Part shown: positions 1-45,439 of the stretch, one piece after another
Position numbering within the stretch: the stretch's first letter is position 1
Layout of the letters: each line of letters starts with the position of its first letter
Source: Amoebophrya sp. AT5.2
Taxonomy: Eukaryota; Sar; Dinophyceae; Syndiniales; Amoebophryaceae
Length of the DNA: 64,000 nucleotides
NCBI GenBank assembly: GCA_005223375.1
Contig: RXOD01003801.1
Coordinates: 1 to 64,000, forward strand
Direction of reading: 5' to 3'
Translations under genes and position numbers: made by a program
The notes under the pieces: model-generated
The model's input: the letters and a program-made list of their open reading frames with translations, nothing else
The model's database searches: none
What the model was told of the DNA's origin: nothing

Positions 1-1
1 A

Positions 2-6516: not shown

Positions 6517-7134
6517 GCGGGCGATCCTAATCCTTCTTGCGCTTGCAGCGGGTCGACGAGTAAGTAAGAAAGTGTAAGAGTAAATCTAAGTTTTCAATGG
6601 AATCAATGAGAACAGGGAACGAAAAATAATCAATTAATTAGCCAGACGAGGAGCTCTTCGAGTACGGTCAGTGAGTAAGCGCCAGTGAAGCAAAAGATTA
6701 GTGACAGTCTGCAGAGAGAAAGACTGGGACTTTACCTATGGAATCAGACACTCACCCTGGTCGGAATCGAGGCAAAAGCTGTCTTGCCTCGCGCGGATGC
6801 GGATCGAATCGAAAGCCACTGCGGCACACCAAAGGAAAACCGAGGAACATCACGAGGGAGTCGAGTGACTCGCCGCTTGCGGTTTCGTACCTGAGAGATC
6901 CGACAAATCCGGAAAAGGGAGCAAAACTTGCCAGTCGCACTGATTCTTCCTTCACTATCATCATCGTCCTCGTCTGGGTCCTTTAGCGAATTTAGCGTAT
7001 GTGACCGCAGGCGCAGGCACATTTTTCGTATTGGCCCGCGAAAGCATCAAATTGACTCTGGCTTTGACGATATTAATTTGCTTCTCCGGTACATCAACAT
7101 CGCCGTATCAACACTGACTCAGGAGGAGATCATC
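6517..7134. other. Gene-free stretch, possible 5' leader of the next gene
   Basis: No gene is supported. An acceptor-like CTGACTCAG at 7114-7122 lies 12 nt before the next ATG, so part of this stretch may be a 5'-UTR intron, or this may be a trans-splice acceptor if the organism uses a spliced leader. Confidence 0.4.
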
Positions 7135-10100: not shown

Positions 10101-10417
10101 AGCTTTAAGTGCAGATGGAACTTAAGCAGAGGCACTCCATCAATCAGAAGGCGGGCCAGGTAGTTCGAGCTGTTTGTTGGTGGAACCAACTCGTAGCCAT
10201 CGTAATGAAGCACAAGTGAACTCCAGGACTCAAGCAGAAGCACGACGCACCAAGAACTGGATTGAAGTACGAGAGGAGGTGCCAGATCAATAAGAAGCCA
10301 GGGAATGGATCTGGAGCAGGTGTGGATCAGGTGCTGGTGAACGACGCTAGTAGAGATGAGGAACACGAACATGAGCATGACGCGGATGTCTCCTCATCTG
10401 AAGGCGACAAGATCTAA
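7135..10417 (+). CDS. Long coiled-coil protein, about four exons
   Basis: ATG at 7135. Proposed exons are 7135-8665, 8789-9034, 9476-10108 and 10227-10417, all GT-AG and phase-compatible, giving about 866 residues. Residues 1-230 are Pro/Ala/Thr/Gly-rich and disordered. From about residue 235 onward comes a long, highly charged coiled coil (Lys/Glu/Leu heptads) continuing across exon 2. Exon 3 adds another short coiled coil and a His/Lys/Glu-rich tail. The last exon ends in an acidic His/Glu/Asp tail with TAA at 10415-10417. The first intron (123 nt) is a multiple of three with no stop, so it could also be retained. The intron 3 junction is the least certain. No enzyme motif is visible; a cytoskeletal or scaffold role is likely from the coil alone. 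Confidence 0.55.
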
Positions 10418-11313
10418 TATATATAATTCATTGCATATGCATTGATTTTGATGAATTATTTGAACACTCACGCCCGGCGCTCGTTCGAGTAGCACGTCCT
10501 AAAAAAGAGAACTCCGGTCTCCCTGGAAAAAAAAGTACCGACCACGGTTCACGCAAGAAAAAAGTAAATCATCATCATTATCATCATCACCATCTTCATC
10601 GCACGCATCGATCATACTGACTCCACTCTGCTCTTTTTCGCAGGCTCACAGATTGTAAGTCGCACACAAATCCCTGGTCATTGTGATGATCCGCTGCAAT
10701 TCTTTCGTCCGCTCTCCTCGTTTCGTCCGCTCTCCTCGTCCCTGGAAGATCATCGCGACACGCTTTCACACGACAGTCACGATTCTTCATATTCGCCACC
10801 AGATATTAATTCGCCACCAGGACCAGAGTCTGTTGGGTTTTAGGAAACGACCTCGTAGAACGTAGTTGTAGTTCTAAAGGTAAAGATAGACGGCACAAGA
10901 AGAGATGAGGACCAGCAGTATCAGGACTAGACGAGCCGCAGACTCGCCGTGAAGGTTGAGCGCCGGGCTCCGGCTGCGCGCCATTTATTCGCGTCAATCA
11001 AAGACCACATGTGAATGCTGGCCCTTTCGGCCGGGATTTCTCGATTAGTGATTTCGCTACATATACATTTTTTATCCATGATTTTAGCTAAGACCACACT
11101 CACCCTTCGCTTGTTCGTTGGGCGCAGTTGCTATATGACAGCAGCTACTACTTCTTGCTATACCCTTGGTTTCGAAGCACACGTGTCCATGTGTTGATAT
11201 GGACTTCATAAGCTCTACGTCTAGTACTTCAGTAAAAGTTTTATACTAAAGTGAATCAATTAACGTATAACTTACTAAAAACGAAAGGCACTACCTTGTG
11301 CTTGGTGACAAAA
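10418..11313. other. Gene-free stretch with simple repeats
   Basis: No gene is supported. The stretch holds a CAT/ATC-rich microsatellite near 10566-10600, an 18-bp tandem duplication at 10703-10738, and two copies of TTCGCCACCAG around 10795-10822. Confidence 0.5.
10703..10738. repeat. 18-bp perfect tandem duplication
   Basis: Two adjacent identical copies of an 18-bp unit beginning TTTCGTCCGC, at 10703-10720 and 10721-10738. It is non-coding and probably a recent slippage duplication. Confidence 0.85.
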
Positions 11314-14300
11314 ATGACGACTTTGTATCCAGGCTACTTTCCTCGTGCGGCCAGTGTGCCACCCATCTCGATGCTTCGTTCCGCGGCTTCGTTCTCGCTG
11401 TGTGTTTTTCTGGTTCTTTGCTCGTCCCAGGAAACACGGTTGGCCGCAGCGGGCTCTTACGACTCTCCCAGCTCCGATCACACCAGTGGCGCGGCGCGCT
11501 GGGCGGGACGAGCGGGACGGAACGAGGTCATGAACACGAACGACCTCCAGCAGTTGAACGAACACGGCTCCACCCCGGCGGCGAGGACCTCTGCCTGTTT
11601 TCCTCCTGGAGCAGCTACGAACTACCTTCGGAGTACCTCACCAGGTCGAGTAGCACCAGAAGATGAAGCCAACTGCTCCTTTTTGACGACGTCCACGGCG
11701 GTGAGCACCGGCGGCAGCGGACCGCGGAGCTTTCAGACCTATGGCGGGTCGAGCAGTTCGGCGTCGCTGGTGGCGCCGCACGACCCTCGCTTGTCAGCAA
11801 CAGACCCCAGCAACTACGATGTTATTGACGACATAGACGAGATGCTACGAGAACGGCCGGCGAGCACCAGCACGACGCAGCACCACGGAACTACAAGCCA
11901 CCTATTTCGTCCGTCACCTGTTGTAATTGACATTTCTCCTGAAGATGCATTAGCATTTCCTCGTGCAGGAGGAGGTCGTGGACTACAACATGAAGATGAA
12001 CACGTTGTACCTGAACAAGAAGTAATAGTAAGGTGGACCTCCACCTCTGAAGCTGAACAGCAAAAGCTCCCCTCGTCGTGGAAGTCCTTACGTTTGGATC
12101 CAGCGCCGGAAGCGGGAGCTGGGAGTGTTAGCCGAGACGAACAGCAGGACGGAGGTTGGGAAACACCGACGGGCGCGCAGCAGGACGGAGGTCGGGGACC
12201 AACACCGAGGACGAGCACGTCGAGCATTCATCAGACGAGCAGGAGGAATCTCAAGCAGGTCCATCCGGTGCTGCCGAACAATTGCACTACCTCGTCCTCA
12301 TCTTGCACGGCCGCTGAGCGGGAGGAGGAGCAAGAAATAGCGCAAAAAGTGCACGAAGGACCGGAGCCGCCGCAGCAGGGAGGTGGACCACGAGAATCGA
12401 AACAAGGATTCCGGACGAAAACCAGCTCAATCCTACACCGAGCGCACGACCTGGCGTCCGATATTGCCAATTCGGCGTCGGGTTTCAGCCGGCGCCACGG
12501 GAAAAAGCTTGGGAGCTGGCCCTTCCGGGGTAGGCGCACTCTTCTAGCGGCCTCGGGGTCGGCATCGGCATCGGGGGGCCGCACCGCCGGGGCGGGCGAA
12601 AAAGAAAGGGCATCAGCGTCCGGGGTCCATCAACAAAACCGGGCGCGTGACGACGTCATCGTGCCAGTATCTCCAGTATCTCCTACCGCCTTTGACGAGA
12701 ACAACTCCGAGCCTCCAAGATTGGAGGAAGCGGATGTATGGGAACCGATTTCGGACGGTACTCTCACCCTTCGCCAAACGACTTCGCCGCCAGTCCTTGT
12801 GGGGGCTGCAGCACGATATGGGGGCAGCTCTTCTTCTTCTTTCTCGCACTCGCAGTGGCAGAGCCGGAAAACTTTGGTTGAGCACCAAGCCCACCTCCGA
12901 AAACTACGACACCAACACCAGATCCCACTCGATCTAGTCCAAGAGCCGAAGCAAGAAAGAGAAACCGAAACGACTGCAGCAGGAGCAAGCAACCGCACGA
13001 GCCATGCCGAGCGCACCAGTAGCGATACGGCGGACCACGATGACATTTTCAGGGAGCCGGAGCTCTACGCACCGCGCACACCTGAAACAGAACCGAGCAA
13101 TAACAAAGACCCGAACGGCGCCGAACCAGAGACGGTTGCCGGCGAAGCTTCCTCGTCCAGCGCCGGTGCGTTTTACATACTATTGTTTGCTTCAGTGAGT
13201 GTGAGAGTGATGGCTGCTAGGTGCAAGAGAATTCAAAAAGCAATGCGAATGCGTCCCTTGCCTCGAGGAAGACGAATAGTACATCGATCTTACTTTCTTA
13301 GATGAGATTGAGATAGAATGCGAAACTTTCAACGAATTCATTTTGGGAAGCAAGATTGATATCAATCTGGTATTCAATTCTTGTTCCCCCTCCGCCTCCT
13401 CCCAGGTCCTCGTCCGGCTGGGCCGTCCTCAACTCAAGTGCCTTCAGCGCCGCTGGTGCCTCCGCCTGAAACTATTCTCCCTGTCACTTCCGATTCGCGT
13501 TTGGGAATCATGAATGAGACGCTTCCACCGGACCACGTCTCTCCGTTGTTCCGACGACTCGCGCTGCCACAGCAGCGGGCATCAAAGGCATGCGATCCGG
13601 CGCAAGTAGAGCAAGAAGCTTCCCCGCGAGTAAACGCGCCTTCGCCAGCAGCTCCAAACGCTGCACCCGCACATGAACTTGAACAACTGGCCGGGGACGC
13701 CGGCCACCAACAGCAACAGCGAGTCAAAGCGGCCTCCGATGAATCTCCTCGGCTTCACCGGCCCAAGGTCGGTACTGCCGCAGGCGAGCGCGTGCGAAAG
13801 CAGCTTATCGCCCTCCGAGAAAAAGCGAGAGAGGACGCGCCACGATCTCCTCCAGGTTTTGAAGAAGATAACACCCCGCCCGCGCGGCCGCGGCACCTGG
13901 AGGTACGCGAACCCGGACCACTGAAGGTAGCAGAGCCGCCACCACCGGGGTGCAACTCTTCGTCTTCACAACGGGAACAGGTGTGCGATAGCGCGATGAC
14001 GTCGGAGCGCTACGCCTCTATCCGCGCGGAATTGAGGACGAGGGAGAAGCGTTGGTGGATGAAGAGGGAGGCGTGCCACTCCTCACGGGGAGCGTACGAC
14101 GAGAGTCTTCTCGCACAGGATCTTCAGCAGGCCCCCCGAGGGGCCCCTATGTTGATCAGGCGCGCGTCCACGACGGCCACATGCCCCCCTGCGTTCTCGC
14201 CATTTTCGTGGGGCAGGGCGGAGGAAATGGATAGAGCGGAAAGGGGTAAACCAAATAGCGCGCAACTCGTCACGCCGACGCCCAGCTCTGCAACAGAGGA

Positions 14301-17300
14301 CCCATCGTTGTACCTCCGCGCCGTTCGCCGCGCGACAACACTCCCGTCGCGGCTAGATCAACTCGCGACCGCGTCGTGCTGGACACCTGCAGATACGAAG
14401 GACGCGGGAGAAACCGTTCGTGGTGGCACGGCCGATCAAAAGACCGTCTTCGCGCTCGACGCCAAGGGAGGACCGCGCCTGCCCCTCGGAGAAAAAGAGA
14501 GACCCTTAGAGAGGGCTCTTTTCGAATCATTGGACACGACTAGAACCACTTCGTCCAGTGCCGACAGTAGCCAGCGCGCAGCCGGCGGCCTCCCGGGAGA
14601 GAGGTCCAGCGGTGAAAGCCAGCGGACTGCGGGCGTCCCCCGCGCGGGAAGATTCTTCCGCGCGAGTAAAGGTGAGGGCAGCGTGAAATCCTCCGACGAA
14701 GACTTGGAGTTTGATGACGAGGAAGATGTCCCTGTCGAAGTCGTCGACCTGCTCGAGCAGAATCTCGCCGGAGCAGGACCTCCACAGCTGCGCGAATCCG
14801 CTTTGCGCGATTCCCTGGCGGCTCCTTCTTCAGATGGAGCAGTTGTGCACCCCCGGGACACGCCCGGGGACGAGCTACCTGAAGTAGAAGATTCCTTCGT
14901 CGAAGATATATTGAGAGATGGCGCTCTGGTGCTGCCGGGTGATCCGGCTCCGGTGTCCGCGGGCGGGGCGCTCGAGCAACGGTCGATGGACGACGAAACA
15001 CTTCGTTCGGCGGACTGCGCAACAGGGTCGTGTTCTGAACAGAAGAGGTTGGCACCGTGTCGCACAATTCTGCAGGTGGTAGACGCGGATGATTCGGAAT
15101 ATGAAATGAAAGACGTCGAAAGAAGTGGAGAAGGGAACCCCGAAACGTCGGGTCGCGGAGGAGGCTCCACCCAACTTCACGAGGAGCATGAAGAAAGTCA
15201 TCGGCCTTTGGCTGAGGCCGTCGTGGACCAGAATGATCAGCGAGACCCCCCCCGCGAGAGCATTCTACGACCGCGACCTCAGCGCAACGAAGGCGCTGCC
15301 GGTGCCGGGCGAGCAGCTTTTGCTCTGGCGTCAGGTTCCGGGAGTCTGCCGCGCCGATCCCTTTCATCGCGGGCCCACCGCCCACCGCTTGGCCCCGTGC
15401 GTGCGCGAGAAGAGGCCCCCGGGCTTCCGCAGAATGTAGTGGAGAGGCTTGGGATTGGGACGAACAGTAGGACGATGATCTGCGAGGACGAGCTGGTCGC
15501 CTGCTATGTGGCGTGCTTACGAAAGATGCCGAAGGAGTTCGACTTGGACGAGTGGCCGCGGGAGGTATTTGGCGGAGATTATTTCCACCCGAACGCGCAC
15601 GAGTTTTTGCAGCGCGCAGCGGACGTAGTACGCGCCGAGCGCGGGCAGACGCAGAGCCAGCATCATCATCTCGTGGACGGCGACGTTCCCGAGGACCCCT
15701 ATCTTCCTTTTGAGCATGGTGCAAGAGACTGCCGTTGGTCGGATGGAATAGATGGACCCGATCGACAAGATTTGGAGCAGAACGACTTCAATGGGCGGCA
15801 CATCAATTTTGAGAGGCCGGCGTTCGCTGCTGACCCGCGACTCGCGCACCAGCACCAGAAGAAACTGCTCCAGCGCACTGCGATTTCCAAATACAGACAG
15901 ACATTTTTGGCGGGCAATCGCAATGCCGATGTAGAGGAAGTGGGCAACGCGCTGCCAGAGCTCGCGGGAACAAGGGACGAAATAATAACACCGCCGGACG
16001 AGGTCGAGGTCGAGGTCGAGGACCGGAACGGAGACAGACTGCTGGCAGCTCCCAGCGGTATCAATGTGGGAATGGGAGGCGGCGCTGGTCCTCGTGGAGG
16101 AGCAGCTGCCGATGCTGGAGAACCAGGACGAACAGTAAGTGCAAGCCCTATCGGGGTGCCTACATCGTCGGCCGCGGGGGGGAGGCCAGCGGTTGAAGAA
16201 GCTGATCATGCGGACGTGCTTGAGGAGGCGGAGCTCCGGCGGCGTGCGCGTGCACGACAGCTCGAGCTCGAGCTCGAGCCGAAAGAGCAGGAGCAGCAGC
16301 AAATTACCGCGCGTATGGAGGCACTGACACTGGAGGGACATGATCGGCCGCTGCTAGGGGTAACAGCAACAAGGACCAGGGGGACCGATGCGCGTCCGAG
16401 CGCCACGCTGCCAGGCGGGGATTCCCCGATGGGCATTGAGGCCGCGGCCGCCGTCGGGCACGGTCAGGAAAAAGAACCTGAACAGCCGGCACAGTTCATG
16501 ATGTCTTGCACACCACGAGGAGCACAAGCGACTGCGGCGAACGCGCCTGCGAGGGCAGGACACGATGTTGGCACTTCAGCACCTTTAGGCGCATCTCCAA
16601 CATTTTCGTCTGAAGCCCGAGATGTAGCCGCCGCACGCTCTCCCCCCCCTCCACTTCCGCCCATCGGCTCCTTCTACAACTCGAGGACGCACACAATGGA
16701 TAGCATTCCCTTCGGCCCCGCGGATTTCTACTACCGCGCAGACGAAGAGTACCTTCGCGACCCGGTGGCGGCCACTGCGCTGGCCGAGCTCCAGGCCGAA
16801 ACGCGGTTCCGGAGACTCGGACTCCGCCACGATTTTTACCTGAACGGGAGCGCAGCAGAGTCTTCGCCGCCCAAAAACGACGACGAACCAGGGACGACGG
16901 AGGTAGGGTCGTTGTCGGAAGCTTCATCGGCGTCGCAGCTCGTGTCGTCAGGAGAAGTGGCGCACCCCGGTGACGGTCAGGAAGCGTCGGGCGAGCAGTC
17001 CTCTGCCGACTCACAACTGTACTGGAGCGCCGGCGAATATATGCGCGTGCAGGCACGCATGGCAGATCCGGAGCGACTGGACTACGGAAAATACCACCCG
17101 CCGGAGCATCATGAAAATGTGAAGAAAGTGAGACACAAGAAGCGTGGACTCAGCAAGGAGACAGTTCAGCAATCGGAACCGAAAGAGCAGTCAATGCAGC
17201 CGATGAGTGAAGAAGAAACACGACAACATCACATGGCGGGCACACCGCCGACAATCCAAGAAGACACGCAAGACCAAGAGAGGGAACGGCGGCCGGAGAC

Positions 17301-20300
17301 GTCGGCGCCTGCTACAACAAGAACAGCGTCAGCAGCTGGCGTCAACGTGGGCGGGGGGCGCGGAGGCAGGGCCCGCGGATCCAGAAAGCGCAAGAACAAG
17401 AAGAAGGCCCCCCACATGAACCCCTCCAGTTATCCGTCGATATCCCGCAGCTTCACGGGCACGTGGGCGCTGCGGGCCTGCTACGGCGTGGCGTCCCTGC
17501 AAACTCCCGGCACCGAAGCCGTTGCGAACCGCACGTCTGCCGGGAACAATGTTTCCCGGGGGCTGGAGGCGATCTCAGTGTTGCAGCTGTGGGACGGTGA
17601 GCGGATGCAGAAGACTTGCGCTTCGCGTGGCAAAGGCATCAGGGAGCCCACGACGCCCGTACAACGTCGCTCGGAAAGAATAAACTCCGGAGATGAACAA
17701 GAAGAATATAGTGATGTTGAAGACCAGAAGCAGAAGCAGCAGCTGCTGCACCAACCGGCCAGCGTTCTACCTGGCTCGTCCTCCTCGAGTGGGAACCTCT
17801 GGGCGCAGTTGCAGGTCATGAGTTCGGGTGATGCTGGTCGTGGTGCCGCGGCTGATGCCTCCAACGGGGCAGCCGGCGTCCACCTTGTTGCCTCCAGGAT
17901 GGCCCAACACGAGATGGCAGACCAAACCGCTATGGCCGGGAACGAACACGAACCGGCCCCGCCACCTACCTGGACCCCCTTTGTTGCGGACGACGACGTG
18001 GGCGCCCAACAACAATACTGGTCTTGTCAAATCGCCGACGCAGAGGCGGACGCTCTTCGAGATCGCCAGGGGCACGAGTCCGGAGCCACTGCTGGACCGG
18101 TAGTCCACCTCAGCGCTGCGACGGCCGATAGGCTGCATAGAGAAGCGGACGAGTCCGCCGTTGTACAGGACGAGTTGCTCCATTTCACAGCGTTTGGTGA
18201 CCACCTGGTGAACGCCTGCGTCTGCGACGAGCATCAGGTGTTGTACCTCGTGGACCCGTCGGAGAACAGCCGGAGTAGATGGTATTTGGACACCCCCGCA
18301 GTCGCGGAAAAAATAGAGGAACTAAAGATGTCACGGGACGAAAATCAACGTCACCGGCAGAAAAAAGGCAAAGGAATACGCGCGGCGAAAGAGCAGCATG
18401 CGGATGTAGTGCACGCAGAGACCGCGGGTGGTAGAAGAAGCGTTGCGTCGAGCGGTAAGTCCCTTTCCGCCACGGCCGCGCAGCTGCAGGCAATACAGGC
18501 GGAAAGATCTTCCCTCGGCAACAACGAGCGGGAGAAGGAGCGGCTGTCCCAGACCGCATGGTGCAGCGGTTCCGGCGATGGGAAAACGGCAGTGATGCTG
18601 AAGCTTCTGGACAAGAATCACGTGCTGCGAACTTCGCGGAACGGCCACCAGTTCCAGATCTACGAGCGCCTCGTGAAACTACCTGGCACCATATCGTCGG
18701 GCTCTGCACCTGCAAGTCAGCGGCCAAGGCGGGGGGTGCGGCCGAACCATGCGGCGTTCGTGTCCGTCGCGGCTTTGGAAGCGGCAGCTGCTTGTCCTCG
18801 TCGTCCTTCTCGCGGCGACGAGGTGGTCCTCGGAGTTGTGCCAGCTTCGTCCGAGGAGGTAAGCCAACAGCAGGAACCGAAACAAGGCGACGGTTTTGAT
18901 TATGCGGGTGTGGGTACGAACGAGGAGCAGCACTACGAGTCGGCTGGGACCTTGTCTGGCGGCGAGGTCGAGGAGGCGGACCGAGATGGCAGTGAGGACG
19001 GTGGTAGGACGCTGTTCAGACGGCGGAGAAAACGGCGGGCCTCCGCGAGCAGCGGGGATCAACATGCGGCACCTGCTTCTCGTGCAGGAGGGGCCGCAGC
19101 CAAGTCTAGTGAAGCGGGGGAGGTCATGGAGACAGACGAGCGGAGCCCCACGCTGGAACGCCGGGGCGGAAAGACGACGAAGGCGAGCCTGGACTTGCCA
19201 AAGAGCGGGGGGAGAAGTTGTAAGATCGACTCAACGGCCACGGCGAGGACGAATACCGATGGAGTCCGGAATCCGTGCATTCGCTCCAGGTTGTGGCCAC
19301 ACACGCAGTTTCAACAATCGGCGGCTGACCTCTTGGCGTCACTCTCACACGAGCCGCAGTCGGCTGACCGCCGGGGTCCGGAGCCGGACGGGCAAACCGC
19401 GCAAATGGTTTCTTCGCGCGCCCCCGCAAAAATGGTTCAGCGATGGCACGATCCGGCCCCCCCAGCAGATCTTGCACCAGTTGTAAGTGCGACCGCAACT
19501 ACTACAGCAGTGGGAATAAATGCAGCCGATCAACATCATGATCTTCATGTGCACCCTCATTCGTCGCAGCTGCTGCAGCCAGCGAGTATCTTCAACGCGC
19601 TAAACGGCGGTGGCGTGGTTCGTTTACCGTCGCAGGAGCGCGCTGCAGCTGTTAGGAAGAATTGTAACGTGCCCGCGAGATTTCTGTACCAGACTTTGAC
19701 CGGTCATTCTGCGGCCGGCTGTGAGCATACGTGGACCAGCACCAGTGCTGAGGCGCACCACGACGGCGGCATGGACGGGCGGGCCACAGCGGTAGAACAA
19801 GCCCGCGACGCACGCATCGAGGAGCTCGACGCGTTCGTGTACAACGTCGTCACTAGTATAGTTGAGGGACGAGGAGGACAGAGGGAAGCTCATCATGAGC
19901 ATGGTGATGCTCCTTCTGGGGAACCCGATGCCGAGCGCGCGGAAGGAGCTGGATCGTCCGGAGGAATAACGGGAATCGGAACGACGGCGCGAGGACCATT
20001 GGAAGACGAAGCGTCCGCAGAGCACCGCCGAGCGGAAGGACAAAATCCTCGCGCCTCACAAGAAGCAGCAATGATGTTCAGCGAGCGGAGTTTTGCCGAA
20101 GTTCTGCGGGCGCAACGCGACGGGGACGAGGGCTACGGAGATATTCTCGACCCTGTGTTTTGCGGCAAGTGCTTCGAAGTGGTGGCGGCAACGAGAAATC
20201 TCATCCAGCGGGATCGACGGGAGCTCGAACGCGAACCGGACGAAGACTCCTCCCGCCGGAGCGGCTCGAAACGGAAAATCAGAATACCACAAGCGCAGCG

Positions 20301-21219: not shown

Positions 21220-22582
21220 TACTCTGACTCAGAATCGAAAAGCTCTCGCACAGGCGGGCGCCGGGCAAAAGCGAACATCTCTTGACGCATCGATTTACAA
21301 CGTGGTTGCACGTGCCTGGGAACATCTACGCACCGGTATATCCCAGCAGGCCCCGGCCCCGCGCACTGCAACAGAAGCAGAAGCAGAGCAGCTGCAACAA
21401 CAAACAAGGATGAAGGCGAATGATTAGCATATAGATACCAATCCGGATTCGAGCTGTTTTTTCATTTTTCCCAGAGAAACTAACTATGTTTGTATCAATT
21501 TCACCCGTAGCTTTCGATCTATTCCGGTTCCGCACTGAGTTCTTCAGTGACCTACACGTAGACCTACGCCTACCGAATTGAACAATGTACTATGACATGC
21601 TCAACTTGAAGATGAAGTCTCTAGGTACAATATAAGAACAACGGCTTCTTGATGGGCTTGCTGCACAGCAGAAAAAGCCTTTAACTTCACCAGCACTTCT
21701 TCGTCTTAGAAGCACTAGCTTTTTTAGCATCACCACCACAAAATACAAGCCGCAGCATAAATTGGGCTTAAAAATAAATCAAAAATCATAAATTGCGCTA
21801 AGGGAAGATGTGAAAAGAAACTGTTTGATTTTTTCTTTCCTTGTCGGATGGTCTCTGTTGTACCTGAAAGAATCTACTGAGTACGCGTGCGCTAGCAGTG
21901 TGTGTGCTCTACCTCTACCACGGAGGCCGACTACAAATATGCGGCGGGACTGATGTAAACCTTCACTTCGATGGATAGTATCCGATACTTTTGTTTATCT
22001 TTATCCGACCAGTGAAGTAGCTCAATCTCGCATCCGCGGTCTTCCTGCTCGTCTTAGTAAGTTACAAAAAAATCTGAAACGCAAGAATGGGGATACAACG
22101 ACTGTAACTATTCATTCTTGATGTTTGCAACATGCAAGCGAAAGCACGTTTGAAAGAATGAGCTTGATTTCTCCAGGCTATTTTCAAGAGTGGCGGGCGT
22201 ATTGTGTTTGTTCTACTCGATGCTGTGATGTGCCTGGCGCAGCTGGCAGAGGCTTTACTTTCACTTATCTTCGTCTTTCGCTCCTGGACTTCTTCGTGCT
22301 CGTGAGAAAGCAAGACATGATGGCCTTCCAAAGCCGAGGCGTAATTCCACGAGAACTCGTTTTGAAGAAAGTCTGTCCACAAGAATTCATTGAGTGCGGG
22401 CGAGCGCTTGTGAGATTCGCGCACAGAGGAGGAACTCGACAATGTATGATCATGATGATCGTACTAAATGCACATGCAGATGCATACATAGCATAGAAAG
22501 TTTCAACGCTTCGATTTCTACTACCACGACCGGACGAGGAGGAGGACAAGAGGCAGAAGAAGCATAAATTAATTAAGTAAGT
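21220..22582. other. Gene-free stretch, with a possible alternative 3' exon at its start
   Basis: The first 200 bases (21233-21426) stay open in a shifted frame and read as a protein-like 65-residue Ala/Gln-rich tail ending in TAG. That tail could be an alternative last exon of the giant gene if 21160-21232 is spliced out (GT-AG, phase 0). The remainder is AT-rich, with no supported gene. Confidence 0.4.
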
Positions 22583-24596
22583 ATGACGGGTCGCATTTAC
22601 GTTCCCCCCGACATCGCGGACGTGCCTCCGCCGCCGTTCCCGGCGACGCGGGTGCGGCCGAATCTGCGGTACAAGTTGCAGTTGGAAGACGGAGCGGCTG
22701 AGCGGTACTACGACTTCGCGGACCCAGGACTCTCCTTCTACCACAGCAAGCCGTTCCGCTCGAGAGTACACAGGATGCAAAGAAGCGTGTCCAACCCAAT
22801 CATGAACCACAGCATACAGGTTCCGATTGGTGACTTAGACCTATCACCTATAATGTGATAGAGTTAGATTCAGATCTAGATGAACTAGATCGCAGTCTTT
22901 TGTTAGAAGTAGAACTAGATTCTGCAGGCGGACCTATGTATTTAAAAATTTTTTGCTGCGGGACGGCCGCCATGATATGATGCTACGGACACGGGCACCC
23001 GTGGATACAAAGAAACAGACATTGATTTCATTTTTTACTTTACGTTCATACTTCATTGCCTAAAAGCAGCACGTGCACGCATCCGCAGCGTGACGGGCGA
23101 TACCGATACATTTACATAGGGACACAACTTCTACTTTTTGACGGAACGTTCGTACAAAAACGGCAGCATTTATGATATACCCAAACAATCACACCCGCAG
23201 TCCGACGCGTTGACTTCGATAAAGACGCTGGTTCCGGAACGGCAGGACTGGAAGCACACGTATCATCGGTACCACCTGAACGACGGGTACGCGGTTCAGG
23301 ATCAGAGCGTGACCGTGGTGCAGTCGAAGGACGAGACCAAGCCCACGACTGTCGGCACGCACGTGAGCTCGTCCGGCCAAGTGATCTTCAGCTTCCGTGA
23401 CCGCCAAGTGGCGCAGCTGGACGCCGAGGACCTTCTCCGCATTTTACAGGACCGCCCAAGCAGGGGGAAATCGACCAGCTGGAACGTATCTTCTCTATGA
23501 GGAATAAGTGTGTAATAAATCTCGTATGGTTTATTTTGGATGAAGATGAATGTGCTTCCTTGTCGTGGCTGCCACTTCCTGTTCATACTTTCGTTCTGCG
23601 CAGATCTATGCCCTCGACGAGGAGTTCCGACGGCGATGGGGGAGGAACGGGATTTGGCACACGAAAAGGCTGGAGCTGTGCGTCTTCTTGTCCTGCTTCG
23701 AGCAGACGTTCCACGTCTTCGGGGACCAGCACCAGTTCGTAAGGTACAACTTGCCATTCATTGGCATATATGCTTATCTGGCAGAACAGCTTGACGAGGT
23801 ATGATAGCTCTTGCTCTGCAGCGTTTAGATTGTAGATGGCTACTTAATGAATCATATCCATTTCCTTTCTATGACCATGTCTATCTATGTTGATCATGCA
23901 GATGCTCTATCGCTCGGTAGCTCTGGAGAAGTTCCTATCACAGATGTCGGCAGAACAATGGGAAGATCAAGGCGAAGATGGACCGGGTGATGATAAACCT
24001 GGCGCGGTGCACCAAGCCGCTGCTGATCAAGATGCAAAACTACCGGCTGACGAACACGCGAGCCATCAAGGGCTTTGACCTGGAGGACGTAAAGAACCAC
24101 ACCTTCGCGGTGGACCTGCAGCTCCACCAGCCCGTTCCGATCCAGTGCTTCGCCGCGGAGGAAGCCGAAAAGTTCGGAGGCCTGCGACAAGAACCCTTCC
24201 CGCGCGAGGAAGTAAGCCCATGAAGATGTTCACGGTGTTCTTCCGATGTGTGAGGGCGACCTTCCGAAGATAGCGATTTCGGGGGCCGCGGACGAGAGTC
24301 GGTTGGGCTTGGGAGGCTATGAATATTTTTCGGATCGATTGGTGGGCAGAAATATTCGTTTCCGGAAGATGAAGAACGCAGGCTTAGGTGCACGGCTTTT
24401 GCTGGTGGGATCCATGGTGCTTCACCGCATCTATCTGCATCTCCTTCATCATCAGTTTGAGCTACTGAATTGTCAGGAAAAATTACAGTCTATTCTAGGT
24501 ACATCTACTTCCACAACCACACAGCGATCACTGCTGCACTTTGTTTCTGTATCCTCATTCCGCGAGAATAAAGACCGGCGGAGTCGATTCCTTTAA
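22583..24596 (+). CDS. Unrecognised six-exon protein
   Basis: ATG at 22583. Exons proposed from phase: 22583-22819, 23120-23485, 23604-23798, 23954-24211, 24270-24387 and 24499-24596. All introns are GT-AG (300, 118, 155, 58 and 111 nt) and the joined frame gives about 423 residues. The protein is well folded in character: it is rich in Tyr, Phe, Trp, His and Arg and has little low complexity. It has an N-terminal Pro-rich start, a Tyr/His-rich second exon, and a helical third/fourth exon containing RRRWGRNGIWH and a Leu/Lys-rich stretch. I see no catalytic signature and do not recognise it. The last junction is the weakest, because two other frames after 24499 also look protein-like, one of them ending at 24693. 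No transmembrane helix is evident in the first five exons. Confidence 0.6.
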
Positions 24597-25243
24597 AGCT
24601 GGCGGAGCCGCTCCGGCGGTTCTGAAGTCGATTCCTATTCGGAAGCGAGACGTCGACGGCGACGCATCCATAATGATGTATTCACGCTTCTAAGCGGAGT
24701 TGTTGAACCGAATGTCTTCACACGAAACACCAATGTGCTTTGTTTGGAACAACCAACGCTGCTCCTGAGGCTGAGCAGAATGTACGAAAGCAAAATGACT
24801 GGAGATTTCAGGATGACGGAGACGGGTCTACCTCGAGTGGTAGCGAGACTTTGCGGAGCTCCAACGCCGGGTTGGCGTGCTGGCGGTGCAGTTGCGCCGG
24901 TTTATTTTTGTTTACGCGAAACGTGCCACCTTTTGCCTGCGTGCATGTGAAGCAAAGATGCTGTTGCGGCCTGATGCTGCATCTTCCTGAGAGCTATTCT
25001 TTCACTGTGGTAATGTGTGTCCAGCATGAGGATGAGCACTGGTATTGGAGACGAGAAATTCATGCGTAAAAAAATAAACCCGGGTCAGGATTACAAATGT
25101 ATGTGGAAATATTTTTTTATTTTACTGCTTAAAGTTTTACTTCGTAGCAGCTTTCGCGGTTTGCATTGGTCTTCAGCAAACAGGACTTTCCAAATTCGTA
25201 AGGCCGAGTCAGAACAAGTCCTTCTGCTGCGGCTGCTCGCAAG
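24597..25243. other. Mostly gene-free stretch
   Basis: The frame ending in TAA at 24691-24693 is open from 24499 and reads as a plausible short C-terminal peptide, so it may be an alternative end of the preceding gene. Beyond that I see no gene. A short duplicated GTCGATTCCT occurs near 24582 and 24630. Confidence 0.35.
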
Positions 25244-27169
25244 ATGACGGACGGCGACGACAGTTACATCATGTCCGATGAGGACGATTCCGAGGAGTTC
25301 GAGGACAAAATCAGCGAAGCGTACTTTCTTACTTACTCCCCGTAGTTGCGAGCGAAGATGAACGTAAAAACACATATTGATTTTCTGGAGCTCCTGGAAC
25401 AACTTTAACGAACTTACAGGTATGAGAAACACCAGTCCGCCCGTGCGGGATCGAGTCGGCCGGCGTCTGGGCGACCGGAATCCCACCACAGTCGGCCGGA
25501 GTCCCATCGCGGAAACCGGCCGGAGTCACACCGCGGCCGCGGCCCGGGGGAGTTCCAACGCCCAGAATCACACCGAGGAAGACCCGACTCAGGGAAGGGA
25601 AGAGTATTGGTTGTGGATTTATTATGAGTCTAAACTACTTTAAATAGTGTTAGTTACCGTTACGTTGATGTGCTTCGGCTCGCACTTTTATACAATGAGC
25701 TCTATCGAGGACGGGACCGGTCGGTTTATCGTCTGGTTCATGATGAACGAATCCTTGCTTTGCAGCAAGCCATCGGCGGCGGCTCTTCTGCCCTTTCCGC
25801 GAGCAGTACAGCGGAGATTCGGTCGGTTTCCAGCGTTACTGCCGCTTTACGGAATGCTGCGGACCGGGTTGCCATGGAGCTCGGGCCTAGAGCTTCATCT
25901 GGGTCGCCCTCGTCAGGCGCCTCGTCATCCTCTGCAGGCGCGGCCGGAGGCGGCGGGGGCTTTTTAAATAATGAGTACGACAAGGTACTAGCGCAACGAG
26001 CGGTATCCGCGAGCTGGTTAAAGGCGGAGAAAGGTGGCGGTCCATTGGCCGCAGTGGAAGAACACGATCGAGACGAGCCGGGAAAGTCCTCGCCGCGGGG
26101 AGAGAGCAAGCCCGTTCCGTTCGAATTGGAAAAGTTCGTGCCGGGTGCCGAACCAAATGCGAATGCTGCGAACAAGTCGTCGCGCTCGTCGAGCAATTAT
26201 GTGTATGCATCGGAGAAGTTTGAAGACGACGAGGAGCAGATCGAGGAAGAAGTAGAAATTCTAGGTGTGGAGGCGTTGTTCGGGATTGGCAAGAAAGGAG
26301 GCGAGAACGAGATGAAAAACGAAGACGCGGAGGTGGAGGAGGACAACGCCGAGATCGTCGGGGAGGCGGAGCCGAAGACTAAGAGTCCCGAAGCTCCTCT
26401 CGTGCCCCCCTCCGCAGTCGATCAGCCTGCGTCACCTCCAGCCGCAAGCGCGAGCGTGGTGATAGAAGAGCGCAACGAGGATATCGGCGTACACCCACCA
26501 GTTGTCGGCGCTGCGAACTCCACCGAAACGACAAACGAAAACGACCAGCAAAATGTCCCGAGGAGACCAACGTCTACTGCAGGCGCCGGCGAAGAAGAAG
26601 TACAGGTCGGCAAAACGAACAAAGTCGTTCCAGCGTCAGGAGGGGGAGCAGACGGCAGTGGTGCGAAAGATTTGATACGCGAGCTGCTGAATGGGTCAAG
26701 ATCGTCGCAGTCCTCGTCGTCAGCATCTGGAATCGTGTCGGCAAACAACAGCCACCAATCCAGCCGGCGTGGAAGCCGCGAAAAGCGACCCTGGACGGAG
26801 CACGAAGTTGTAGAGAGTCGCGTAGCGGCCGCGGCGTCGGGAGGATCTTCAGCAGCAGTATCTGGGGGGCCTCCTGATGTTTCTTTATCGAACCGAGCAG
26901 AAGACCCCCAGCCCGTGCATCCGGCGTCCAGCAGCCCCAGCGGCGCGTCCTCCCGAAGATCAAGCAACGCGAAGCCAGCAGCCGTGCAATCAACGAACAC
27001 CGAGAAGCTCTCGTCAGGGGCAGACGACGACATTCCGATGCGCCGCGCTGTGGTTAACGCAAATGAGGGCAATGATGAAGCTGCAAATGTGTGTTCTCGC
27101 AGTCCCACGAACCCATGGCAAACAAGCACTCCGAAGTTCAGTGGAAGATCCTCGAAGTTACAGCTATGA
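25244..27169 (+). CDS. 5' part of an interrupted gene: acidic, Ser-rich protein with RPESH repeats
   Basis: ATG at 25244. Proposed exons are 25244-25320, 25420-25603 and 25700-27157. The 25604-25699 junction is phase-compatible, but other junctions are possible. The product starts with an acidic Asp/Glu-rich segment, followed by four copies of a RPESH(R/H)-type motif at residues 45-75. A long Ser/Ala/Glu-rich region with an acidic patch comes next. The frame ends four codons after 27157 at TGA 27167-27169, and those last codons lie inside the left terminal repeat of the 27158-29468 element. Without the element, the frame runs on exactly into the 29474 frame. The natural product was therefore probably about 1,120 residues, formed together with the 3' part. 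I do not recognise the family. Confidence 0.6.
27153..27157. repeat. Probable target-site duplication, left copy
   Basis: CGAAG directly outside the left terminal repeat; the same five bases follow the right repeat at 29469-29473. Confidence 0.65.
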
Positions 27170-27201
27170 TTAATTCATATCTGCTCGCATATTTCAAAAC
27201 T
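27158..27201 (+). repeat. Left terminal inverted repeat
   Basis: 44 nt matching the reverse complement of 29424-29468 in three blocks (11, 11 and 14 bp) separated by one mismatch and a 7-nt spacer. It supplies the in-frame TGA that ends the upstream reading frame. Confidence 0.85.
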
Positions 27202-27394
27202 ATATTTTTGCTGCCCGGCCGGGCGTCAGCCCGTACGCCTATAAAATATGTTGGGTGAATGTTGTCAGCCGGAGCCACTCACTCGGCCTAGATTCGCACG
27301 CAGCTGGGGATACGGGCGGCATCGGGTGGGCCACGAAGGTTTCCGGCGAAAGCATATGCCGTGACGGGCTTAGCTGCAAATCTTGCATGATAAA

Positions 27395-27459
27395 CATATT
27401 TCATACGGCATACGTCGTAGCGCGGCCCCTTCGTTGCGAACTATGGAGTATGAAATATG
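27395..27459. repeat. 12-bp inverted pair inside the element
   Basis: CATATTTCATAC at 27395-27406 is perfectly inverted at 27448-27459 around a 41-nt GC-rich loop. Both arms contain the element's 8-mer motif. Confidence 0.8.
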
Positions 27460-28210
27460 CGCGCCCATCCGGGCACCGCAGTACGCCGAGAGTGGGCACA
27501 GGCTGCATCTTTGTGATGTCGCAAAATTTGCCCATATGGATACCCAACTGAACAAGCAGGCCCTTGCTTGTGCCGCGTTTTTGGTGAAAGATGAGGACGG
27601 TCCGCAAGCTCCTTGCTTGCGTGACATCGGGAATTACGATCCGACTCGGCCGTCCCGCGCGGCCCGACGCCGAAGACGGCTCGCGTGCCCTTGTGCAAAA
27701 GCGGGCAATACTCTCGGCGTCGCCGTAGTCGCGCAACAAGTGGCACTTTGTAGCGTGTCGGCGTGGTTTCAGATTTTTTGAAATATGAACGCGCTGGGGC
27801 TCTCGTTCGAAGCTCTTCGGGCTTGGCCACGACAAGCGCCCGACACGAGAAGAAGCGCCACGTGGGGCGTCGTGGTATGTGCTTCTACTCGCTTGCGGAT
27901 TTGTTCCATCTGTCGCGCGCCACTTAGATGGAGAGGGCTTGCGAATGGGCTCCGCCCTTGCCGCCTGCTCCCGTGTCCAGATGATTCTGGCCTAGCCTTA
28001 ACCCATGGCTGAGCAAACCGCGGCAGGCATCAAACGTGCCTCGTGGGAGACTCGCCGCGGGAGGCTATGGCTCTCGATTTGCGGGCTTGACTCGATGGTC
28101 GTGCGTCTGAGTAGAGGCATCGCGGTCGTCTTCAATCTGACCGAGCACATGATATCATATCTCTTGACATATTTCGTGGCATATCAGTTCGCGGGATTTT
28201 TTAAAAAGTA

Positions 28211-28415
28211 GTGTTTTGGGGTACCTGTCAGGGGTACCTGTCGAGGGTCTCCGTTCAGGAGATATGGTCTGAGATATGATTTGGGGGAGACGGTCAGACC
28301 TCTGTGACCTAGTCACAGAGGTCTGACGGCGTCCCGCAAATCATATCAAGCCGCGCCAGGCTGAAGCATATTAATTTGTGTTTTAGGGTACCGCTTTGGG
28401 GTCCCTGTCAGGGGT
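28211..28415. repeat. Direct repeats flanking the central hairpin
   Basis: GTGTTTT(G/A)GGGTACC occurs at 28211-28225 and 28378-28392. CCTGTCAGGGGT occurs at 28224-28235 and 28404-28415. The paired blocks bracket the hairpin at 28273-28347. Confidence 0.8.
28273..28347. repeat. 75-nt near-perfect hairpin at the centre of the element
   Basis: Two 36-nt arms with 32 matching positions and a 3-nt loop (CTA at 28309-28311). The inner 16 bp on each side (GTCAGACCTCTGTGAC and its complement) and the outer 11 bp (GATATGATTTG) are perfect. It could fold as RNA or extrude as a cruciform. Confidence 0.9.
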
Positions 28416-29423
28416 CCCAAACGAGGGTCCCGGGAGTTTTGAAATATGCGAACGCCATGAGATATGTGGACGTCACGCGGGCGCGCGAGTGTGTCGTCCT
28501 TCCTCTCAGGCGTCAGGCGCTTCGCCGCTGACCATGGTCAAGCCATCGCGCGGCCCGGCGACTGGCTTGCGGACATCCATGCGTCGACGAGCTAGAAACC
28601 ATCGCCACAGGACCCGGCCAAGGCCGCACGCCATGCCTTATCGTGTGGCTTACTGCCGCATGCGAATGATTGAGATGCCGACAGGTTCGCGCTGGCTCTC
28701 ACGTTGCGCCGGGATGCGTTCGGATTTTCCTACCAGGAAGCATCCGCGCGCAACTGAACTTCAGCGGCGTTCTTCCCGTGGCATCTTCCTCGTAACAGCC
28801 CCAGGAACGTTCATGGAATGTGGTGAGTGATGCGATTCCATTCGGTTGCCCGGTAGCAGTGCATGTGGCTAAGAGCGCCCGAAGGCTGGCGCGAGCAGCG
28901 ATGGCGCACTTGCGTCTCCGATGCTGATCTGCTGGCGCGAATGGTCCTACTTGCGTAGCAGCAGGCATGGAGAGCGCGCGGGCCTGGTTCTTGCCATAGG
29001 CGTGCCCTGCACCTTTAGGCCGCTCCTCGTGCAATCACTCCAAAGCGCGGCCTGTGCCCGCCAGCGGCTAATGCCGGGGCGCCGTGCACTAGCTGTACGC
29101 AAAAGCCTCGCCAGGATCTCTCCGCGCCGATCCCCGGAGAGATCTCGACGAAGTAACTTTTACGAAATATGGCCACGCGATATGGTTTCTTGTCTCGGGT
29201 TTGCGGCAGAGTCTTTCAGGTATCGACGCCGGTCGCGGGTCGCGAGGTGTGCTGGGAAGTCTCTTCCGCGACACCCGTCGTCAGTCTGCAGCCCACATAT
29301 TTCGTGAGCATAATTCATAAGTGGGGCGCTTTCATGTCACTTGCCAAGAGGCTGCCGCAGTGTGTGGCGTGGCCAATAGTGGACGCAAGCCCAGCCAGGG
29401 ACGCACATGCGTGGGCCCGGGGA

Positions 29424-29468
29424 AGTTTTGAAATATGTCTTTGAAATATGAATTAAACATAGCTGTAA
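29424..29468 (-). repeat. Right terminal inverted repeat
   Basis: 45 nt, the inverted counterpart of 27158-27201. It contains the ATG at 29435 that would start the downstream reading frame. Confidence 0.85.
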
Positions 29469-31599
29469 CGAAGGAAATCGGAGAAAGCGCCTCATCTTCA
29501 GGACCTTTGGCGCGTGATTCGAAGCCAAGTAGCCGGCCGGTGAAGGCTATTCCCATCGACGGCATCCGACCCGAGTTGCAGGGCCTCTTCACTTCTGCAG
29601 ACAAACACCAGAACGCCTTCTTCACATCTTCAGCACGAGGCACAACCCCGGCCACCGCAAGTGCAACGACGCCCAGACTCGCACCTCCGTTGAACAGTGG
29701 CAGGAGAGGCGCGGCTTCTGGTTCTGGTACGGCGATTTCCTCTGCCCGTGCTGCCGCTGGCGACCGCGACCTCCACCGCAGTTCTGCGGATCATCGGCCG
29801 GATCTTGCTCACGCTCAGTCGCACACGACGCTGTTCTTCCAGAAGAACTCGTCCGTTGCAGCCGGAGTCCAGCCCGCTTCGTCGTCCAGCGCGCGAAGGA
29901 TCCGGCCGCCCACGACGAGCGCCACTACAACTGCCGGACCTCCGCAGCCGCTTCCACACGAGCCTGCAGCGAGCCTTCACGCGGCGTCCACGCACAAGTC
30001 CACCGCAACCTCCTCCGCGTTCGGCAAATCTGCATTCTCGTCCACCGGCAAATCGTCTCTGTTCCGGATGTCGAATTTCTCCTCCACGAGAACTTTGCGG
30101 TCCTCCCCGTTTTTGTTCGATGAAAAGGAGGGGGATTACAATTACTACACTTCCGATGGTGCAGACCCGTCCACCCCGCACCATGCCGGAACATCAAAAT
30201 CAAAGCTGTCAATGCGGAGCGAGCTGGGGATGACCGGCGGGACGTTCACGCTTTCGCGGACCACGTCGAACTCGTCGGTCGCAAACAACACAGCCGCGCA
30301 GGCGCCGCACCCGACCTTCGCCGGGAGTGCGTTGTTGTCCACCACTCGGCCAAAGACGGCGACTGGCGGCATGGCGGCGTTCGAAACCGTGAAGCAGAGA
30401 GCGGAGCGGATGGCGGTACTCATCGATCTATCACCAGTTGGTTCACTCGTGTTTTCATCCACCTCTACCAAGAACTCGTGCTTTTTTACATCCGATGACT
30501 TGTATCAATTTTACCGTTCATTCTGCCGGATACCAGGAGTCGCTTGGCGCACACGGCGGCTCCAAGACCGGTTCTTCGCGCCCGGGTTCCGCGCGGCCGA
30601 AGAGCGCGCGGCAGCACCTTATCGAGCAGAGAAAAGAGCGCGAACGCAAGGAAGAGGAGGAGCAGCAACGCGTGAACAGAAACGTGCGCGAACTGGAGTA
30701 TGCGACCCTCGTGAAGGTAGAAAGATGCTGAAGTGCTGCTTCTACTACTACTTCTTGCGCTAAACGACCTACTTTTAAGGGCAAACCTATCAACGAGAAC
30801 GAGATCAACACCATCTAGGACATCACTATTGTTCACCACAACTGGAGAGTGAGTCACACCAGCTATACTTTCATCTTTATGCAGTGCCAGTGTTTGTAGT
30901 CACTCCTTCGTTACCTTCATCACAGCTGAGTGAGATGAACGAGTGGCTTCGCGAGCTGAAGTTGCCTCTCTCGTACCGCGTCCTTGTGAACCAGCACCGA
31001 AAGGGGAACCGGCTCCAGATTTTTGTCTACGATTTGAAGACGGGGGAGCAGAGGGAGGAAATCAGTTTCGCCATTCTGGAGAAGCGGCACCGCGCACTGA
31101 AATCGAAATATGAGCAACAAAGAGACCCGTGGAAGAAACCGGACCCAAACTCGCCGGCAGAAAAGTTAAAGGTGCGGAAAGCGAGGAAAAGGAGGTACTG
31201 ATAGTAGTTCTCTTGCTTGCGCTCGTCGGTCCTCGTGCTGGTTGTGCGTGTGTCTCCGTCTCCCGTCAACAGCCACATTCATTCAGTATACTTAGTAAGT
31301 CTTGCGCGTGGGCGTGACGAATAACTTCGCGAAAACTACTACCACATCAACGAACCCAAGACCAACGCAACCTCAGATTTTCCGGTGGCGGCGACAAAGG
31401 GAAAAAGGAGAACCCGTGCTGGCTCTCGTCCGAGGTAGAACACGCGCGGAAAATCGAAATTCACGAGGCGTATAGCGTTGTGCGAAAACTCGAATTCAAG
31501 ATTATGGACCAGTTGGTCACGCTAGAAGCCCTGCACCAGCAGTTTCATGGGAAGAAGAAAAAAAGGCCACAGAGCGCGATGGCGGACCTTTTTCGATAA
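29435..31599 (+). CDS. 3' part of the interrupted gene, five exons
   Basis: The frame opens at ATG 29435, inside the right terminal repeat; codons before 29474 are element-derived. Proposed exons: 29435-30415, 30537-30716, 30819-30848 (a 30-nt microexon), 30926-31194 and 31377-31599, all GT-AG and phase-compatible, with TAA at 31597-31599. The first exon encodes a Ser/Thr/Ala-rich disordered region. Exon 2 carries a charged Arg/Glu/Gln helix. Exons 4-5 encode a compact, conserved-looking domain (WLRELKLPLSYRV, then LQIFVYDLKTG, then a basic helical tail ending ADLFR). That C-terminal domain is the only part that looks folded; I cannot name it. If transcribed alone, the protein is about 560 residues; joined to the 5' part it is about 1,120. 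Confidence 0.6.
29469..29473. repeat. Probable target-site duplication, right copy
   Basis: CGAAG directly outside the right terminal repeat, matching 27153-27157. Confidence 0.65.
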
Positions 31600-32504
31600 A
31601 ATTTATCAGAACGCGGTAGAGTGCTGGTGGCCGTGGCAAGTGGTGGTGGGAGCTCCGCCTGGATGCGGGCGCCCCCACGACAAAAAGAACATCCCCATAC
31701 TCGTTTCTTTTTCTTAAGACCCAGGAAGGACTTGCACGTTTTCCAGTAAGTGCTCAACTGCAGCATCACTAACTTAGCATATTCAGGATCATCCTCATCG
31801 ACGAAGAACTTTCAGAGCTGCTAGCTCGTCTGGCTCTGGACCTACAAAAAGACTAAGACGAACAAAACGACCTTGTAAAATCTTTGTTTTTAATTTACTC
31901 CCTGAAGCGAACGAAAAAAAAAGAAATTCGTCACAGAGGCGAAGCCAGAGCTTGAATGAAAGTCTGTTGCTGCTGCACAAGCTTTTTTTCAGCGGCTTAA
32001 AACCGCGACGGAAAGTGTGTGCGCGCCATTCGGTGACCTGGCCACTGATTCAGAAATTCAAAATTTTCTCTCGTGGAGAACGTCAATATCCTCCCTTCCT
32101 CGTTTTGACAGTTTCTTTCATCGTCGTGACAGGCTGCAGAATCGCGATCTTGTTCCGCCTCATTCGTGGTCAAAAAGAGAGTGACATTGTTCCTCGATGG
32201 GCGAGAAGAGTTTTCGCTTGCAACGCCGCCCGCATCGCCAGCTAGCGGTTCAGACTGCCGGCGGGAACGCGGGCACGCAATGGATTGTCTTCTTCAACAG
32301 AACGCGTGCTTCGTCGAGATGCAGCAACCGCGATTCCCAGCAGTGGTCTGCCAGCGCCATGGCGCACCAGGTGGAATAGCACGGCGTTTCCGGCATCCTC
32401 GGCAGGCGCAGCGAAGCACTATTGCGCGCGAAAGAAATGGCAGCACGACGCGAAAGAAATGTTAGTTAAGCTTAAGTAGCGCATTTAGATCGGGCAAACC
32501 CCGG
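31600..32504. other. Gene-free stretch
   Basis: I see no supported gene. The part after 31860 is A/T-rich, with several A-runs and short unrecognised open frames. Confidence 0.5.
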
Positions 32505-43625: not shown

Positions 43626-45439
43626 ATGTCCTCGGCAGCGTTACGTGCGGTTTCGCTTGGCCGGCGCCTCGCCACGCCGACCTCTACTACACTGCCGCGA
43701 GCATGCACTACCTGCGCTTCCACGAGTTCTACTTCGACGTCGTCTTCCTCGTCGGTCCCTGTTTTCTTGCATCGTCGACGAAGAGGAAGATACGGAGTAT
43801 CAGTATCTCCATATCAGCCGAGTTCAATGGTCCGGCATTACACGTCTTATGCCGAGCTGCCAGACGAGGTGCAGATGATCCGTGAACAGGCGCGGCAGTT
43901 CGCGGAGGAGGTTCTTTTTCCAACCGCGGCCAGGAACGACGCGCTCCATCTGTACCCGGAAAAAGAGATAAAGCAGCTCGGCGAACTCGGATTTCTGGGG
44001 ATGAGCGTGCCAGAGGAATACGGAGGCCCAGGAATGTCCTCGCTGGCGTACGCAATTGCCATGGAGGAGATCTCACGCGGCTGCCCCAGTTGCGGACTGG
44101 TGCTTTCGATAAACAACTCGCTGTACTGTGGGGGACTAGTGAACTTCGGCAACGACAAACAAAAGGCGACGCTGCCGGAGTTCACGTACGGAGAAAAAAT
44201 CGGCTGCTTCGCACTCTCGGAGCCAGGTACGAAATATCTATGCGGGAGGATGAAGATCTAGCTCTGCCTCTGGGAGGTCGTCTGGATCGTCGTTCTCAAA
44301 CTGCACAGAATCAAAGCTTCATTTGCGTACGTGGTACGTTAAGATCCATCTTCAGATTCAAACTTCTTTCAGTTGACGTAGTTCTTTCACTGCCACTTCC
44401 GATTCGCATTCGCCTCCCCAGGTAATGGGTCCGACGCGGCCGCCGCTTCCACGACGGCGAAACGGGACGGCGACCACTACGTGCTGAACGGCACGAAGCA
44501 GTGGATTTCGAACTGCTATGAGGGCGCCGCTACCCTCGTCTTTGCGACCACGGACAAGGAGATGAAGCATAAGGGCATCTCGTGTTTCGTGCTCCCGCTG
44601 CCCAACGCGCCCGACGGAACGGGTGTAAGTGGAGTGAAGCTGGGCAAAAAGGAGGACAAGCTGGGGATAAGAGCGTCGACAACAGCGCAAGTGATCATGG
44701 AGGACGCGAAAATACCGCACGAAAACCTGCTCGGGCAAGAGGGACAGGGGTTCAAAATAGCGATGAAACTGCTGGACTCGGGGCGGATTGGGATCGCGGG
44801 CCAAGCGCTCGGAATCGCGCAAGCGAGTCTAGAGTGCGCAGCGAAGTATGCAAACGAACGAGTGGCGTTCGGACAGAAAATCGGTATAATCTGCGTCTTG
44901 ATGGGTTTTTTTTCAACTAGTAAATGTTGGGCCCGGAGGTGAGCTGAGAGTGCCAACACTCTCCCTCCGCTTTCCTTCCTTCAGCCAGCAGCAGCGAGCG
45001 ACCAAATCACAAAGAACCACCAGCAACGTGCTTTCGATTTCGATATACAAATTCGATCGGTCCCTTTTCCGTAGGTTCCTACTACGCCGTCCACGAGAAG
45101 CTGGCGGAAATGGACCTTCGCATCTGGTCTGCGCGCCTCCTCACCTGGCAGGCTGCGTGTATGAAGGATCGCGGCGAAGAGTTTACGCGTGCCTCCGCCA
45201 GGTGCAAGTACGCGGCGTCCAAGGCCGCGACGTTCTGCAGCTTCGAGGCGATACAAATCCTGGGCGGCATGGGCTACGTCTCCGACATGCCTGCGGAGCG
45301 GTATTTTCGCGATGCCCGGATCACTGAGATTTACGAGGGCACTTCCGAAATCAACAAAATGGTGATCGGGCAGAAGGTGCTAAAAGAGATGAACGAATCG
45401 GAAATATGGCTGCCGGCACACTTCCCAAGGCCGTCGTGA
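43626..45439 (+). CDS. ACADS: Short-chain acyl-CoA dehydrogenase, mitochondrial
   Basis: Exons 43626-44226, 44422-44883 and 45075-45439 (introns 195 and 191 nt, GT-AG) join into 475 residues. The mature enzyme aligns with short-chain acyl-CoA dehydrogenases from about residue 72. The first 70 residues are Arg/Ser/Thr-rich without acids, a typical mitochondrial presequence. The enzyme is an FAD flavoprotein that introduces the trans-2 double bond in the first step of mitochondrial beta-oxidation of short acyl-CoAs, passing electrons to ETF. Visible signatures are [33 protein letters not shown] (FAD/substrate loop), [22 protein letters not shown] and the catalytic-glutamate motif [12 protein letters not shown] near residue 440. 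Both introns interrupt conserved motifs (GN and GS codons), which fixes them firmly. Confidence 0.95.

Follow-up and report, generated by a model that had tools for sequence, protein, structure and literature searches.

In a 64,000-nt stretch of the Amoebophrya sp. AT5.2 genome (hereafter the window, part of contig C5), a long open frame is interrupted by a sequence with inverted ends and a CGAAG repeat at each border. The question is whether this sequence is a mobile element that landed in an exon, or an insert that the cell takes out of its RNA; the initial annotation had left room for both. As argued below, the 2.3-kb element is very probably a non-autonomous cut-and-paste DNA transposon inserted into an exon. 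Its features are listed in Table 1. The assembly searched for relatives amounts to 50.7 Mb in 2,759 contigs, down to about 10 kb (the contig C2746 has 10,030 bp).

Table 1. Features of the interrupted locus and of modelled introns in neighbouring genes (window coordinates).
Feature	Position	Strand	Remarks
Interrupted open frame, upstream part	25634..27157	+	508 codons to junction; no Pfam match
Left direct repeat CGAAG	27153..27157		5 bp, presumed target-site duplication
TIR element	27158..29468	+	2,311 bp; no stop-to-stop ORF contained in it exceeds 196 aa
Left terminal inverted repeat	27158..27201	+	44 nt
Central module	28208..28429		GGTACCTGTC-type direct repeats flanking hairpin; counterpart C1031:8858-9075
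75-nt hairpin	28273..28347		z -11.75; conserved in C1031, with two-sided changes at 3 pairs
Right terminal inverted repeat	29424..29468	-	
Right direct repeat CGAAG	29469..29473		5 bp
Interrupted open frame, downstream part	29474..30760	+	about 430 codons (429 from GAA); no Pfam match
Modelled introns	44227-44421, 44884-45074, 47210-47361, 48341-48508, 49901-50079		all GT-AG

That a single frame is cut into two in-frame halves, as first proposed, was borne out. The upstream frame runs into the element for 9 nt before meeting a stop, and it is also inside the element that the downstream frame becomes open; the 508 and 430 open codons agree in phase, reading being resumed once 2,316 nt are removed, which is the element plus one repeat and indeed a multiple of three. 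At the local base composition, open frames of this kind are expected by chance with probabilities of about 3×10−9 (upstream) and 2×10−6 (downstream), for frames picked after viewing. Codon usage gave moderate support upstream and weak support downstream, where an antisense frame scored equally. This weak downstream signal speaks for two separate genes flanking an old intergenic element, a reading that is very unlikely given where the two frames stop and open, and given their common phase. No Pfam match was found in either half, nor in the three X-filled plus-strand frames of positions 22000-31901, and of 7,978 candidates scored against residues 1-508 of the upstream frame, none reached E ≤ 0.001.

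The borders of the element read CGAAG/TTACAG...CTGTAA/CGAAG, with a perfect direct repeat; its termini begin TTACAGCTA, and it is bounded by TTACAGCTATGNTTAATTCATAT termini. Over their first 44 nt the two ends match at 38 positions when one gap is allowed and at 29 when ungapped (36 had been counted before), and the delimitation of 27158-29468 by these repeats stands. Over 24 nt that take in one flanking base, segments 27157-27180 and 29446-29469 show 96% complementarity, and the two 60-nt ends had a local score of 30, versus a maximum of 17 among 2,000 random pairs of 60-nt segments from the window. The window was also scanned for perfect inverted repeats of at least 10 nt with an adjacent direct repeat of at least 4 nt. 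Three pairs were obtained, and 20 resampled sequences gave 0 to 4 each. Thus by the scan alone the terminal pair is not significant; its significance comes from the length of the pair and from its recurrence at other sites. By the same count, no further small introner-like pair in the window rose above chance.

Further copies of the terminal repeats, for which the initial annotation had proposed a search, were indeed found. A 22-nt terminus pattern gave nine matches on seven contigs in 50.7 Mb (six besides the window's), one of them beside an ABC1-kinase domain, and none in the reversed control; a looser 20-nt pattern with three mismatches gave 11 matches, versus 2 in controls. The base preceding TTACAG over seven junctions was G, G, G, A, T, T and C, and this variability supports the element boundary. 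Inverted repeats at both ends and the same termini at unrelated sites are the marks of a TIR (class II) DNA transposon. The 5-bp direct repeat, presumably a target-site duplication, was seen at one site, the other copies being truncated or without one flank.

On C51, the rightmost 303 bp of the element recur at 97% identity (C51:9459-9761), with 78 bp more at 92%, and the left end is absent from the match. The first 105 nt of the element share 80% identity with the left end of C1031, a contig of 17,938 bp which runs exactly from terminus to terminus, and 407 bp of that left end are present on C1810 at 98.5%. C252 and C2262 break off after the first 22-23 nt of a left terminus that matches the one of C1031 perfectly, and C884 starts within an exact copy of the right terminus of C1031. 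These breaks inside the termini, of which 22-23 nt are visible, suggest that long copies continue at several sites. Open frames of 294 and 401 codons precede the junctions on C252 and C2262, respectively. At C884, C1810 and C51 the longest open stretches of the flanks have 108, 89 and 70 codons. The C252 frame had no Pfam match. The C2262 frame (junction at 11427) matched positions 30-139 of the 244 of the ABC1 kinase domain, ending 25 codons short of the junction, which may lie within an exon or an intron of an ABC1-kinase gene.

A long-form terminus adjoining an ABC1-kinase domain, like the perfect repeat and the frames open on both sides of the 2.3-kb element, would also fit removal at the DNA level: the element would be cut out during a certain stage of the life cycle or in a certain nucleus, like the internal eliminated sequences of ciliates, and the working genome would keep an intact gene. 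However, no empty site, that is, no second copy of the left flank in the window, was found among contigs of about 10 kb and longer, nor any second copy of the C2262 flank, and we know of no dinoflagellate precedent for such elimination, which we regard as extremely improbable.

Insertion of a transposon into the exon finds a likely partner in C1031, which was assembled as a contig of its own and carries several genes. The 2.3-kb element is probably a TIR transposon of an undescribed family, mobilised by this 18-kb relative. Counting C1031 itself, relatives of its three consecutive ORFs P0003, P0004 and P0005 follow one another in this order on 11 contigs. Among the loci examined, relatives of P0004 and P0005 only were present on C174, C2607 and C1134, and a relative of P0003 only on C2553, C2381, C443, C1227 and C1796; P0006 had no relative among these loci. 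Internal stops were found in 1 of 16 P0003 matches and 1 of 14 P0004 matches. On C2746 (4127-8320), the relatives of P0004 and P0005 form one continuous frame of 765 codons.

No convincing Pfam match was obtained for the C1031 ORFs scanned (three plus-strand frames of 1-10000 and 9001-17938, plus nine plus-strand ORFs and one minus-strand ORF, a scope in which intron-split genes could be missed). The protein database returned one match for P0004 (51%) and, with the P0003 alignment as query, two more (98% and 58%), all with the source ‘lgn’. Fourteen aligned P0003 relatives gave nothing below E 0.11 in Pfam, and P0003 nothing below E 1.2 in the PDB, where the P0004 profile had no match and the P0005 profile two (E 0.59 and 0.72). 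For ten ORFs compared with PHROGs, nothing fell below E 0.016. An AlphaFold model for P0008 and one relative had a mean pLDDT of 34.4; being unusable, it was kept out of the fold searches. Candidate P0008 relatives amounted to 4 pattern matches in viral and 45 in prokaryote contigs, none of which was confirmed.

In the 14 P0003 sequences, D117, D219 and D243 never vary, P245 is kept in 12, and H246 and E374 in 13 each. The order D, D, DxPH, E is that of eukaryotic cut-and-paste transposases, a resemblance from which we do not claim homology. Three known groups were compared. Polintons and polinton-like viruses are long elements that have TIRs and are flanked by a short direct repeat, and C1031 (17.9 kb) resembles them in length and ends; this assignment was rejected, no integrase, DNA polymerase B, packaging ATPase or capsid having a Pfam match in the plus-strand frames and ten ORFs of C1031 that were scanned. 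Transib elements make a 5-bp target duplication, like that of the window element; their termini begin CACWATG, not TTACAGCTA, and with no Pfam match either, this group was set aside. P elements make an 8-bp target duplication, whereas the repeat here is 5 bp; C1031 also differs from the P superfamily by its 18 kb with conserved extra genes, and by the absence of detectable sequence similarity. It shares with that superfamily the TIRs, the short direct repeat at insertion and, in P0003, the residue order D, D, DxxH, E, the signature of P-superfamily transposases being D, D, [C/D](2)H, E (PMC8230255). In a literature search on Amoebophrya DNA transposons and transposases, most subscription papers lying outside its scope, no description of a family of the C1031 type came up.

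With D117, D219, D243-x-P-H246 and E374 as its residues, P0003 would be a DDE-type transposase that binds the TTACAGCTA ends, and perhaps also scattered CATATTTCA motifs. It would make staggered cuts 5 bp apart and move both the long form and the short form, the latter without the genes. The host frame would have been continuous before the insertion, and would now be interrupted, save for a possible trimming of the insert by canonical splicing.

Other sequences are common to the short and the long element. The CATATTTCA motif occurs seven times in the window, where 0.18 copies would be expected by chance, and each time inside the element; C1031 has 16 copies, of which 13 lie at most 2.8 kb from an end. 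A central module is also shared, its hairpin and direct repeats having opposite orientations in the short and the long element relative to the left end. A search with the C1031 module retrieved C1031 and the window only, and no such module is seen in the C51 copy. Between the hairpin of the window and that of C1031, 3 of 27 pairs have changed on both sides and two are unpaired in one sequence; there is no pair with a one-sided change. This outcome, equalled by 55 of 500 shuffles, lends modest support to a conserved pairing, two sequences being compared.

The in-frame fusion itself does not help to decide for splicing. Any target-duplicating insertion restores the frame once the element and one repeat are taken away, so that the fusion is automatic, and frame preservation was therefore rejected as evidence for splicing. 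It had also been claimed that no frame-keeping cut is GT-AG. This is correct for exact removal, but not beyond it: 12 frame-keeping GT...AG pairs, counted without a filter for site strength or retained stops, lie within 60 nt of the ends. One of them, 27157-29487, has a donor made of the last repeat base and the first TIR base. Closest to the ends is the GT-AG pair 27157-29473 (2,317 nt), which would shift the frame. As far as the letters go, a canonical rescue of the host frame with a small loss of codons would still be allowed.

Introns were sought in two conserved neighbour genes only, those for acyl-CoA dehydrogenase and UBA1. All five modelled introns were GT-AG, with lengths of 152-195 nt, the UBA1 junctions being based on a continuously open frame and on known motifs. 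The joined acyl-CoA dehydrogenase has near-complete middle and C-terminal Pfam domains that span both junctions, and the UBA1 exons, taken separately, have ThiF and SCCH domains (Pfam). In each of the five cases the next exon starts with GT, repeating the first two bases of the intron. A search for U1 snRNA had no match; since control genomes likewise gave none, it is uninformative.

Amoebophrya introners are defined by an inverted repeat of 8-20 nt at their ends and a direct repeat of 3-5 nt at their boundaries (Farhat et al. 2021, PMC7789003). The ends and repeat of the 2.3-kb element agree with this definition, and like introners it lies inside a gene, in a host group that is probably similar. 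The same source reports 99.98% GT-AG introns in strain AT5, more than 60% non-GT-AG introns in A25 and A120, and introns of 40-1000 bp among those analysed; a survey (PMC9860276) gives median lengths of 30-654 nt for introner families. Amoebophrya introners are short, RNA-seq-supported introns present in thousands of copies (PMC7789003), whereas the element has 2,311 bp, more than in either of these ranges, and a rare terminus (9 matches in 50.7 Mb). Its ends begin TTACA, not TTA and two purines as the inverted repeats of A25 introners do, and the introns modelled here in its neighbours are GT-AG.

An introner-like insert would be removed from RNA either exactly at CGAAG, by a non-canonical cut, or through a nearby GT-AG pair with the loss of a few codons. 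The open frames on both sides, the reported form of introner ends and the 12 unfiltered pairs such as 27157-29487 agree with this, but the fusion is automatic, the nearest pair breaks the frame, and length, terminus and neighbouring introns all point away from it. Of the two readings first proposed, insertion was the one supported, by the 5-bp direct repeat, by sharp termini common to other sites and by an 18-kb relative with genes; for the spliced insert no positive evidence was obtained. Introner status is not favoured, and we consider it distinctly unlikely.

A broader proposal would join the two. P0003, P0004 and P0005 could belong to a hitherto undescribed superfamily of dinoflagellate cut-and-paste transposons with several genes each, whose short, TTA-ended derivatives, duplicating 3-5 bp, would turn into the Amoebophrya introners; the window element would then be a fresh insertion and a future intron. 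We think this rather improbable. Farhat et al. excluded transposases as the general driver of introner spread because they found putative ones in a single strain, and they name no general engine (PMC7789003). The transposase candidate of the 18-kb family escapes Pfam, which could explain why no introner engine was found, and the family supplies concrete termini and proteins with which the origin of introners can be tested. The insert is also a neat example of an open frame hit by a transposon, on which one can study whether a dinoflagellate spliceosome is able to rescue such genes.

The assembly was also searched for the dinoflagellate spliced leader, whose copies, in so small a genome, would point to a dinoflagellate of the Amoebophrya kind. 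None was present within the 64-kb window; the whole assembly contained 50 copies within two mismatches, 18 of them exact, and the reversed control gave 0.
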